From contig CASEVT010000115.1 in assembly GCA_949291445.1 (NCBI GenBank), positions 1-46,718 on the forward strand: a stretch of DNA of 46,718 bases, read 5' to 3'. Below, in pieces: positions 19,156-21,905 of this stretch. Under the pieces are notes generated by a model. It was given only the letters and a program-made list of their open reading frames with translations. It did no database searches and was not told the DNA's origin. The stretch comes from an uncultured bacterium (GTDB taxonomy: Bacteria > Cyanobacteriota > Vampirovibrionia > Gastranaerophilales > Gastranaerophilaceae). Position numbers and translations under genes: made by a program. The first letter of the stretch is position 1. Every line of letters begins with the position of its first letter.

Positions 19156-19728
19156 ATGAATGAAAAAGCACAGAAAGTATTAGAGCTGTTAATTGAAGGT
19201 AATAATAGGTTTGCGCAGGGCTGTCCTAAATCTCAGAATAGAGATGTTGAGTCATTGAAGAAACTTCAAAATTCACAGTCCCCGATGGCTTGTGTAGTGA
19301 CATGTTCCGATTCAAGAGTTATTCCGGAGTTTGTATTTGATGTAGGTTTTGGTGAGTTATTCACAGTAAGAGGGGCTGGTGCTGTTATCGGACCAAATAT
19401 ATTAGAGAGTGTTGAGTATGCCGTAGATCATTTAAAGGTTCCTCTCATTATTGTAATGAGTCATGAATGTTGCGGCGTTATGAAAACTGCTGTCACAAAA
19501 TATCCGGAAGAACCGCAGAAATTTAAAGTGCTAATAAAATCCGTGTATGAAATAATAGACAGGAATAACAAAACTTATGACGAGATAGCAGAGGACTATA
19601 CGTTAGTAAAAAAAAGAAAGTTGCTGAAACGTTCGGAGATTTTGCGAAACGCTTATGCAGCGGGCGAGTTGGAAATTGTAAGAGCATATTTAAACTTTTC
19701 TACCGGCAGAGTAACTGTTATTGAATAA
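19156..19728 (+). CDS. Beta-class carbonic anhydrase
   Basis: The enzyme interconverts CO2 and bicarbonate using zinc. All beta-class ligands are visible in 190 residues: C50 and D52 in CSDSR, with the Asp-Arg dyad D52/R54, and H103 and C106 in HECC. The segment TVRGAGAVIG is also diagnostic. The protein lacks a signal peptide and should be cytoplasmic, supplying bicarbonate for carboxylations. No Shine-Dalgarno site precedes the ATG. It follows yidC by 54 bases and may be expressed with it. The family is certain; the physiological role is inferred. Confidence 0.92.
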   Translation: MNEKAQKVLELLIEGNNRFAQGCPKSQNRDVESLKKLQNSQSPMACVVTCSDSRVIPEFVFDVGFGELFTVRGAGAVIGPNILESVEYAVDHLKVPLIIVMSHECCGVMKTAVTKYPEEPQKFKVLIKSVYEIIDRNNKTYDEIAEDYTLVKKRKLLKRSEILRNAYAAGELEIVRAYLNFSTGRVTVIE

Positions 19729-19825
19729 TTTATGCAATTGTATTAGCTGTTAAGTCCGAAAATATGGGAATTACACAGTATTGTTTCAAATATTACAAAT
19801 TTTAAACAAACATGAAAATATACTG

Positions 19826-19854
19826 TTGACGTAGGAATATGTTTAATATACATT
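19826..19854 (+). promoter_or_regulatory. Candidate promoter of the ribosomal protein operon
   Basis: TTGACG (19826-19831) is followed after 17 bases by TACATT (19849-19854); an overlapping TATACA at 19847 would give 15 bases. Transcription would begin near 19861, just before the hairpin at 19867-19880, leaving a leader of about 216 bases ahead of rpsJ. Confidence 0.5.
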
Positions 19855-19860
19855 AATTTA

Positions 19861-20060
19861 TACCGAGCACACCCGTGTGCGTTTTTAGTGCAAAACAGGG
19901 CTAAAATACTAAAGCGGGCCGGAACAATCGAAGTATGTCCCAACGGATGTATTGCATTAGAACAAATAGAACGAATTATTTTAGAGTATGATTGAGATTC
20001 CGGAAAGTGTGTATGTAATAAAAAGTCTGGCATAACGAAGTAGATATTGCCATTGTAGAA
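19861..20060 (+). promoter_or_regulatory. Structured leader of the rpsJ operon with terminator-like hairpin
   Basis: The 348-base gap between the carbonic anhydrase gene and rpsJ holds the promoter above and this leader. GCACAC-CC-GTGTGC (19867-19880) followed by five T (19882-19886) looks like a short terminator or attenuator. UUAGUGCAA (19885-19893) can pair over nine positions, two of them G-U, with UUGCAUUAG (19952-19960), and inside that loop AUACU pairs with AGUAU. The T run and the first strand of the long helix overlap, so the two structures may exclude each other. A 35-codon GTG-started frame (19888-19995) lies in the same stretch. A regulatory role is inference. Confidence 0.45.
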
Positions 20061-20076
20061 GCAAAGGAAGACAAAA

Positions 20077-20400
20077 ATGAGTAACGCTCAAGGTCAAAGA
20101 CAAAGAATCAGGGTATGCTTGAAGGCATATGATCATAAACTCATTGATGTTTCAGCAGAGAAGATTGTAGAAACAGCAAAAAGAACTGACGCAAAGGTGG
20201 CTGGTCCCATTCCATTGCCGACGAAGAGAAGATTATATTGCGTATTAAGATCCCCTCACGTAGACAAAAAATCGAGAGAGCATTTTGAAATGCGCACTCA
20301 CAAGAGAATCATAGACATCTATGATCCGACGCAGCAAACAACAGAAGAACTCAGCAGATTAGATTTGCCTGCAGGAGTGGATATAGAAGTAAAATTATAG
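20077..20400 (+). CDS. rpsJ: 30S ribosomal protein S10
   Basis: S10 is a head protein of the 30S subunit and, as NusE, a transcription antitermination factor. The 107 residues contain [24 protein letters not shown] and [20 protein letters not shown], all diagnostic. GGAAG sits before the ATG. It is the first gene of the operon; tuf and rpsG are not upstream here, unlike in many bacteria. A 167-base hairpin-rich gap follows before rplC. Confidence 0.97.
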
Positions 20401-20403
20401 GAT

Positions 20404-20526
20404 GTGTGAACCGTTCGGGTCCTATTCGGTGAGACCGAAGAAATCACACGAGCACATACAATTGAATAGAGATTGAATGTGATCTACGAAGGTTCAAGAG
20501 AGAACCTTAGGGGTTGAAGACAACCC
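20404..20526 (+). ncRNA. Multi-hairpin structured RNA between rpsJ and rplC
   Basis: Four consecutive stem units fill this untranslated stretch. (1) GTGTGA (20404-20409) closes with TCACAC (20444-20449) around two inner hairpins, ACC/GGT (20410-20420) and TTCGGT-GAG-ACCGAA (20425-20439). (2) CACAT-a-CAAT (20453-20462) pairs with ATTG-a-ATGTG (20472-20481). (3) AAGGTTC-AAGAGA-GAACCTT occupies 20489-20508. (4) GGGTTG-AAGA-CAACCC occupies 20511-20526. Every main stem is a perfect complement. No T run follows, so it is not a terminator. Position inside the operon suggests a cis-acting control element for rplC and downstream genes, possibly bound by a ribosomal protein. I know of no named family that it matches. 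Confidence 0.6.
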
Positions 20527-20567
20527 GAGAGTACAGAAGGTAGCGCTCACAAGGAGAAAGGCAAGAA

Positions 20568-21230
20568 ATGACAACAAAGGAAAAAACTGCCAATATCAGA
20601 TTGGGAGTAGTAGGAAAAAAACTCGGAATGACTCAGGTCTTTGATGAAAAAGGGCTTGCGATTCCTGTTACCGTTATCAAGGTTGATCCATTGACTGTTA
20701 CACAAGTTAAGACAGTAGAATCAGACGGATACAATGCGATTCAAGTAGGGTTTGAACCGGCGAAGGAAAAACATCTTACAAAAGCGCAAATCGGTCATTT
20801 TAAAAAGAACGGACTTGATAACTTTAGACATTTACAGGAGTTCAGAATAGACAATTCCGCAGAATATAAAGTAGGCGACACGATTAACGTATCAATTTTA
20901 TCTGAGATAGCAAAGGTTGACGTAACCGGACAATCTGTAGGTAAAGGATTCCAAGGTACAGTTAAGAGATGGAATTTTGGAAGAGGTCCGATGGGTCACG
21001 GTTCAAAAAACCATAGAGAACCGGGTTCAATCGGAGCAGGTACCACTCCTGGTCGTGTAATCAAGGGTAAACGTATGGCCGGAAACATGGGTAATGAAAG
21101 AGTGACAATAAAGAAATTATCCGTAGTTAAGGTTGATAGCGAGAACAATTTGCTTTTGGTTAAGGGTTCAGTCCCCGGTTCTGAAGGCAAAATGGTTACA
21201 ATCGTTCCGTCCAGAACGAAATGGAATTAA
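20568..21230 (+). CDS. rplC: 50S ribosomal protein L3
   Basis: L3 initiates 50S assembly and reaches the peptidyl transferase centre with its loop. The 220-residue product shows GVVGKKLGMTQVFDEKG near the N-terminus and the signature GTVKRWNFGRGPMGHGSKNHREPGS in two parts around residues 127-151, with the Gln of GKGFQG that is methylated in some bacteria. AAGGAG lies about ten bases before the ATG. The N-terminus carries a few extra residues (MTTKEKTAN) before the conserved start. Confidence 0.97.
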   Translation: MTTKEKTANIRLGVVGKKLGMTQVFDEKGLAIPVTVIKVDPLTVTQVKTVESDGYNAIQVGFEPAKEKHLTKAQIGHFKKNGLDNFRHLQEFRIDNSAEYKVGDTINVSILSEIAKVDVTGQSVGKGFQGTVKRWNFGRGPMGHGSKNHREPGSIGAGTTPGRVIKGKRMAGNMGNERVTIKKLSVVKVDSENNLLLVKGSVPGSEGKMVTIVPSRTKWN

Positions 21231-21269: not shown

Positions 21270-21905
21270 ATGACAAAAGAAGTTTCAATATTAAATACAA
21301 AAGGCAGTACGGTCGGACAGATGTCTTTAGATGAAAAGGTATTTGGAGTTGAACCTAACCTGCATGTAATGCACTTGGCTCTCAGACGTCAATTAAACAA
21401 CGGAAGAGCCGGTACGGCAAATACAAAAACGAGAGCTGAGGTATCAGGTGGCGGAAGAAAGCCTTGGAAGCAAAAAGGTACAGGCAGAGCCAGAGCCGGT
21501 TCAATCAGATCGCCATTGTTTGCCGGTGGTGGTGTAATATTTGGACCCAAAAACAGAGATTACAGTTTTTCAATTCCGCAAAAAGCAAGAAGATTAGCAT
21601 TAAGATCCGCATTATCCGCAAGAATCGAAAACACTGTATTAGTGAAAGACTTTTCAGAGATTAACGAACCAAAAACAAAATTGATGGTTGAAACTCTGAA
21701 GGCGTTAAAAGTAGAAGGAAAGATATTGATAATAGCGGATGTTAAAGCAGCAGAAAATGCTTATCTTGAATTATCAGCAAGAAATTTACCGAATGTGAAG
21801 ATTATTCTTCCTTCAAACTTGAATGTAAAAGACTTACTTGAAGCAGACAATGTGATAATAACAGAAGCTGCAATAAATGATATAACTGAGAGGTTATCGA
21901 AATAA
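21270..21905 (+). CDS. rplD: 50S ribosomal protein L4
   Basis: L4 lines the exit tunnel and, in enterobacteria, autoregulates the S10 operon at its leader. The 211 residues contain the extended loop signature TKTRAEVSGGGRKPWKQKGTG followed by RARAGSIRSPLFAGGG, and an ordinary C-terminal globular part. GAGG precedes the ATG. Its stop codon overlaps the rplW ATG by one base. Its presence makes L4-mediated feedback on the rpsJ leader conceivable, but no E. coli-like L4 leader was recognised. Confidence 0.96.
   Translation: MTKEVSILNTKGSTVGQMSLDEKVFGVEPNLHVMHLALRRQLNNGRAGTANTKTRAEVSGGGRKPWKQKGTGRARAGSIRSPLFAGGGVIFGPKNRDYSFSIPQKARRLALRSALSARIENTVLVKDFSEINEPKTKLMVETLKALKVEGKILIIADVKAAENAYLELSARNLPNVKIILPSNLNVKDLLEADNVIITEAAINDITERLSK

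Follow-up and report, generated by a model that had tools for sequence, protein, structure and literature searches.

Results

A stably folded gap lies between rpsJ and rplC

The window is a 46,718-nt stretch of DNA from an uncultured bacterium of the Gastranaerophilaceae (order Gastranaerophilales, Melainabacteria); among named records, its L3 protein is closest to those of Candidatus Gastranaerophilales assemblies. The gap between rpsJ and rplC within it is 167 nt long (Table 1). The initial annotation had read this gap as a chain of four adjacent hairpins. All of the named stems are present where it had placed them, and its distance of approximately 40 bases from the hairpin chain to the rplC start agrees with an ATG at position 20568. 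It had also argued that random AT-rich DNA is unlikely to give such stems. Consistent with this argument, the predicted fold of the gap (–46.2 kcal/mol) was more stable than those of all 200 dinucleotide shuffles (mean –32.8 kcal/mol, z = –3.5), whereas three other gaps in the window folded no better than their shuffles (z between –0.9 and +0.5). The three-way junction that had been suggested for GTGTGA/TCACAC was not recovered: this unit forms a simple stem interrupted by internal loops, and the fold of positions 20401–20452 is weak on its own (z = –1.65).

Table 1. Features of the rpsJ-rplC region, in window coordinates.
Feature	Position	Strand	Remarks
rpsJ (ribosomal protein S10)	20077–20400	+	ORF; upstream gene in the window's family; element persists without rpsJ
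First stem unit, GTGTGA/TCACAC	20404–20449	+	Arms 20404–20409 and 20444–20449; outside the conserved element
P1, A-A mismatch hairpin	20453–20481	+	CACATACAATT (20453–20463) and GATTGAATGTG (20471–20481); symmetric mismatch
P1, RNA arms	20453–20481	+	CACAUACAAUU / GAUUGAAUGUG; predicted ligand-free fold
AAUUGAAUA box, consensus AHUDAAUA	20460–20468	+	Upstream of P2; in the 5' arm and loop of P1
P2 5' strand, UGUGA-U-CUAC	20478–20487	+	Invariant core; in all 140 usable loci
P3 hairpin, AAGGUUC/GAACCUU	20489–20508	+	Arms 20489–20495 and 20502–20508; apical part of P2; lineage-specific
P4 hairpin, GGGUUG/CAACCC	20511–20526	+	Arms 20511–20516 and 20521–20526; apical part of P2; lineage-specific
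P2 3' strand, GUAG-CGC-UCACA	20540–20551	+	CGC (20544–20546) faces U20483
P2 lower helix			U20478-A20551, G20479-C20550, U20480-A20549, G20481-C20548, A20482-U20547
P2 upper helix			C20484-G20543, U20485-A20542, A20486-U20541, C20487-G20540
Shine-Dalgarno region of rplC	20551–20561	+	AAGGAG 20551–20556, AGAAAGG 20555–20561; adjoins the P2 end
rplC (ribosomal protein L3)	20568–21230	+	ORF; first gene 3' of the element
rplD (ribosomal protein L4)	21270–21905	+	ORF; second gene 3' of the element; candidate ligand

A Shine-Dalgarno site of the AGAAAGG type is kept among relatives. We noted that rplC in the window's genus begins with MTTKEKTANIRLG (positions 20568–20600), as against MT(L/I)GV in most of the family; the rplC start of the window's clade is a short N-terminal extension relative to most of the family.

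A long-range stem, P2, is conserved upstream of rplC

Regions upstream of rplC were sampled from the window's family, the order Gastranaerophilales, and the class. The usable set comprised about 140 loci with 110 distinct cores, from 50 genera and five families (family labels f1, f3, f4, f6, and f7; genera are labeled g1, g6, and so on, and loci in the manner of L003). L127 and L186, whose sequences were cut off or unmatched by the pattern, were left out of the first core table.

P2 is an RNA stem conserved throughout the sampled Gastranaerophilales. It was found before rplC in 50 of the 50 genera with usable sequence, spanning all five families, with the consensus UGUGA-W-CURY / RYAG-CNM-UYRCA. 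The helices flank a 1 × 3 internal loop, in which U20483 stands against C20544, G20545, and C20546; the three-base side reads CGC in 100 of the 110 distinct cores, CUC in eight, and CAA in two. Within the window's family, every one of the 84 distinct rpsJ-rplC regions has TGTGAWCTRC followed, after 15–214 nt, by GYAGCGCTCRCA. The apical part of P2 is free to vary (6–214 nt) and holds P3 and P4 in the window; the shortest form, at L120, is the plain hairpin GUGAUCUGCAUUUAUGCAGCGCUCGC. Upstream, an AHUDAAUA box lies within 55 nt of P2 in 95 of 109 loci, against 13.8 expected from shuffles, and the conserved part amounts to a core of ~22 nt plus this box. The hairpins of the initial annotation are thus real and correctly placed, but the most conserved stem was missed; its 3' strand lies outside the annotated interval and its 5' strand overlaps the A-A mismatch hairpin. 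The conserved layout is not a row of four adjacent hairpins; what is kept is a long-range stem, with the AAGGTTC and GGGTTG hairpins between its two strands. We therefore rejected the chain of four hairpins as the unit of conservation in favor of P2, accompanied by P1 in part of the family only.

We also noted an apical motif, AGAGTT...AACAAA, common to L155, L169, L173, L179, L180, L182, L186, L189, and L191. It is usually framed by GC/GC and occurs in genera whose internal loop has CUC instead of CGC.

Compensatory changes maintain P2

Across the 110 distinct cores, the nine base pairs of P2 are kept at 99–100%, and four of them (a3, a4, b3, and b4) show two-sided compensatory changes. Pair a3 changes from A-U to G-C in eight genera of three families and is G-U in six further genera. 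Pair a4 occurs as C-G, U-A, G-C, or U-G; pair b3 as U-A, U-G, or C-G (C-G in L187 and L192); and pair b4 as G-C, A-U, or G-U (A-U in L164, GUAA/UUAC). In an alignment of 26 short members (A1), 99.6% of cells are paired, as opposed to 11–49% when the strands are slid by 1–3 columns, and the covariation score of 0.121 was reached by none of 500 shuffles (0.075, sd 0.007); these controls correct only partly for shared descent, against which the spread of the a3 change is the best guard. Moreover, RNAalifold applied to the 22 window-type sequences alone returned exactly P2, even though these sequences are invariant within it. Covariation, which the initial annotation had proposed to look for in aligned relatives, is thus present at P2.

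The sequences around P2 differ between lineages. In the sister species L003, the 20404–20449 unit is remodeled, with only its GTGTG/CACAC ends kept around another interior, and the GTGTGA/TCACAC unit is missing from most other genera. Counterparts of P3 and P4 read GGGCTC/GAGCCC and GGAGG/CCTCC in g33 and GCGGCAGGGACATCCGC in g6; many genera have hairpins of the GGUGAAAGUCC type with AGGUAAAG behind them, and others have no apical hairpin. Absence of the stems from homologues, which the initial annotation had named as evidence against its own proposal, was therefore what we found for the GTGTGA/TCACAC, AAGGTTC, and GGGTTG hairpins individually.

P2 is predicted to compete with P1 in the window's family

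The CACAU arm at 20453–20457 pairs with the UGUG of the P2 5' strand to give P1, and the outer part of P1 and P2 are mutually exclusive since both use GUG(A). In ligand-free folding of the window, P1 pairs had probabilities of 0.94–1.0 and P2 did not form; forcing P2 was computed to cost 5.9–6.6 kcal/mol. In 80 of 109 distinct loci, the predicted pairing partner of the GUG strand lies upstream. A CACA arm at the matching position was found in g1, g6, g19, g21, g32, g33, and g41, hence the arm characterizes part of family f1 and not the element itself. In the basal families, unlike the window's family, P2 is stable by itself; computed folds showed a stable P2 alone at L119, L120, L121, L124, L126, L131, L177, L182, and L185. 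As modeled, the competition between P1 and P2 would fit the expected look of a ligand-driven switch.

The element is linked to rplC

At eight loci of f3 and f6 (L116, L120, L122, L125, L128, L129, L130, and L133), other genes replace rpsJ upstream and the element still stands before rplC; most of them have a promoter-like sequence resembling TTGACA-17-TACAAA a short way upstream of the box. Downstream, six genomes of four other families, those with long-enough contigs, share the gene order L3-L4-L23-L2-S19-L22-S3-L16-L29-S17-L14, while on the short contig of a seventh only L3-L4 is visible. In each Gastranaerophilales genome that it matched, a covariance model of the core had a single confident match, at rplC; in samples of the class and phylum, it gave no match at rplC outside the order. 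Many true members whose apical insert is long escape this model, and the window site itself scored only 11 bits, with filters off, because its apical insert exceeds the model span. The case for absence outside the order is therefore made chiefly by 20 rplC upstream regions from other orders, in which the element was found neither by direct reading nor by a filters-off model scan. Two weak matches away from rplC (G207:C254, E = 0.004; G068:C22, E = 0.005) were treated as chance.

In family f3 (L116, L120, L129, L130, and L133), we noted a promoter-like TTGACAT-NAAANTNCGGTTGTANTACAAA ~40–85 nt upstream of P2; a similar form, TTGATA...TTGTACTACA, precedes rplC in another order (L134, L135, and L141). 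At L124 and L131, rpsJ itself finishes in this promoter-like sequence (GTTGACATTGAAGTTAAGTTGTAATACAAC). At L120, where rpsJ is missing upstream, the sequence still translates to VDIKVRL-stop, as though the S10 C-terminus had been retained as a promoter.

The element differs from described ribosomal protein leaders

No Rfam 15 family matched in the window at gathering score, and membership in an Rfam family was rejected. A permissive scan of 19990–20640 gave only a chance match to a CRISPR repeat (E = 7.6), and a search of 12 related loci returned nothing under E = 1.7; the initial annotation, too, knew of no described RNA family with its layout. The element is not among the 20 new ribosomal protein leaders (r-leaders) tabulated in 2020, and none of the r-leaders listed in that survey comes from Melainabacteria (PMC7247131). 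In the open-licence literature, we found no riboswitch or leader RNA paper for Melainabacteria or Gastranaerophilales. The element family is, as far as these searches show, undescribed, although r-leaders as a kind are well known. Such leaders have arisen repeatedly and differ between phyla. Collectively, the presence in 50 of 50 genera, the compensatory changes, the linkage to rplC without rpsJ, and the lack of an Rfam match lend good support to the central proposal of the initial annotation, a new conserved cis-acting RNA element of ribosomal protein genes. Its suggestion that L3 or L4 exerts the control is plausible.

In E. coli, the S10 operon is controlled by L4 (PMC10931766). The leader of that operon resembles the present element in its gene cluster, in having L4 encoded just behind it, and in being a structured leader near a Shine-Dalgarno site. 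It lies before rpsJ, however, is long, contains a Rho-independent attenuator, and is found in part of the gamma-proteobacteria only (PMC10931766), whereas the present element lies before rplC, has a ~22-nt core, and lacks both a T run and an Rfam match. We found no E. coli-type attenuator before rplC: the sole terminator-like site in 19700–20700, at 19867–19880, lies before rpsJ. This site reads GCACACCCGTGTGC then GTTTTTAG and is situated between a carbonic anhydrase gene and rpsJ. The S10 r-leader of Firmicutes and Clostridia belongs to a homologous gene cluster; going by its name in the survey (PMC7247131), we take it to sit at rpsJ, and it gave no Rfam match here. The Archaeoglobi L4 r-leader candidate precedes rplC-rplD-rplW-rplB and has L4 as its ligand by precedent (PMC7247131), but it is archaeal and borderline according to Eckert and Weinberg 2020 (PMC7247131), and the loci studied here gave no Rfam match.

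Discussion

A probable autogenous leader of the rplC operon

We infer that the gap is probably an autogenous r-leader of the rplC-rplD-rplW-rplB... operon, through which a product of the operon would bind the RNA and repress. An operon product, most likely L4 and next L3, when in excess over 23S rRNA, would bind P2 at the internal loop, and binding would draw the RNA from P1 over to P2. In that state, P2 would keep 30S subunits away from the Shine-Dalgarno site, which begins at its foot, so that translation of rplC, and through coupling that of the genes behind it, would be lowered. The uneven conservation, with invariant flanks of the internal loop but an apical part that varies freely, fits that of a protein site, to judge from the sequences. 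The L1 and S8 r-leader sites presumably resemble the element, being short helices that carry a conserved internal loop and lie within or close to the initiation region, and presumably differ from it in sequence, operons, and expected ligands. L4 would rank first as a ligand because of the E. coli precedent (PMC10931766) and because an archaeal rplC leader was assigned to L4 (PMC7247131); L3, whose gene is the nearest to the element, would come second.

The 3' end of P2 adjoins the Shine-Dalgarno site not only in the window but also in other families. The distance from P2 to the ATG varies between 27 and 165 nt and is 80–165 nt in many genera (e.g. at L025 and L079), hence direct blocking of the Shine-Dalgarno site is not the whole story there, and repression at such spacing would need further structure or another step. 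At L025, the GCGAGC immediately before the Shine-Dalgarno site could pair with its complement GCUCGC in the 3' strand of P2, and such a pairing might be this further step. Also counting against the proposed mechanism, the competing P1 arm is restricted to part of one family, and P2 is stable by itself in the basal families.

An 8-nt match, GTGATCTA, occurs in 23S rRNA without the paired strand, and GTAGCGC-like strings occur there too. The window genome's own 23S is absent from the assembly, and the comparison used two near relatives; scanning their rRNA loci (L112 and L113) with the two-strand motif of the internal loop gave scattered matches, none common to both. Mimicry of 23S rRNA by P2 thus found no support in these two relatives under the two-strand constraint. 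Among r-leaders, resemblance to the site on rRNA that the ligand binds is frequent but not required.

A narrower version, in which the element would be a new r-leader, confined to the Gastranaerophilales as non-photosynthetic relatives of cyanobacteria, that senses L3 and, in the window's clade, acts as a two-state P1/P2 switch sharing the UGUG strand, appears unlikely to us. We know of no L3-binding leader.

Other explanations were weighed against autogenous control. P2 might be a site for a nuclease or RNA-binding protein that sets the rpsJ:rplC ratio by processing or stabilizing the mRNA, without feedback. Such a role would suit an element that most of the order has between two cistrons, at 27–165 nt from the start codon, with an apical part that varies as freely as in a processing stem; yet the element persists before rplC even with other genes upstream in place of rpsJ, and the P2 end adjoins the Shine-Dalgarno site in the window and other families. 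Moreover, most endonuclease sites probably need less sequence conservation than the internal loop and its flanks show, and we consider this role quite unlikely. The same RNA core could instead respond to another ligand, be it a trans-acting protein from outside the operon, a small molecule, or an ion. The search for a 23S mimic in two relatives came up empty, which leaves room for such a reading, but the element occurs once per genome and invariably at the rplC operon, which is the pattern of an autogenous r-leader, and ~22 conserved nt seem small for a metabolite pocket. A ligand of this kind is, in our view, decidedly unlikely.

The compensatory changes led us to reject two further candidates. 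The conserved AAUGUGA might be read as codons, that is, as a minimal AUG-UGA start-stop upstream ORF that stalls ribosomes. AUGUGA is indeed present in nearly all genera, and the GUAA variant at L164 retains a stop (AUG UAA), but L187 and L192 have AUG CGA, which lacks a stop while restoring the base pair (C-G); L164 changes both strands jointly (GUAA/UUAC), and no Shine-Dalgarno-like sequence lies upstream of the AUG. A start-stop ORF is thus very improbable. The same holds for a signal at the DNA level, either an internal promoter or a CRP-like operator: TGTGA...TCACA resembles CRP half sites, but their spacing ranges from ~17 to >220 nt and the strands change together, and we know of no operator with half-site spacing so variable and joint strand changes. 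Finally, the lack of conservation of 20401–20452 and of the apical hairpins between genera is what chance hairpins in an intergenic stretch would give; for P2, chance is refuted by the z of –3.5 for the gap, the compensatory changes, and the conservation across 50 genera, and as an account of the element it is scarcely credible.

The element occurs in all sampled genera of an order of gut and environmental bacteria, at an unusual position in the largest ribosomal protein gene cluster, before rplC and not rpsJ. Its small core (~22 nt plus the box) suits direct binding tests, and P2 stems with apical inserts of 6–214 nt form a natural series. The two contrasting states, with P2 stable alone in basal families and P1 competing in the window's family, make the putative switch testable.

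We made several further observations on the sequences around rplC. L025, L026, L031, L098, and similar loci carry an 80–165-nt insert between P2 and rplC, with a recurring GGCGGAAAGTGTCCGC hairpin and with GGGCGAGC just before the Shine-Dalgarno site; from the sequence, an alternative pairing of GCGAGC in the insert with GCUCGC of P2 is possible. In another order, the rpsJ-rplC gaps of L136, L137, L139, and L144 have CCAGTGGA in common, and some have CCACTTACT before the Shine-Dalgarno site of rplC; these gaps possibly hold a different leader at the same place. Lastly, inserts of ~100–140 nt with several strong hairpins (CCGCCGTTGTGGAGTTAAC...) lie upstream of the element at L009, L010, L013, L038, L042, L043, and L053, and in part at L007; they are missing in the sisters L008, L046, and L048, and resemble a mobile palindromic repeat.
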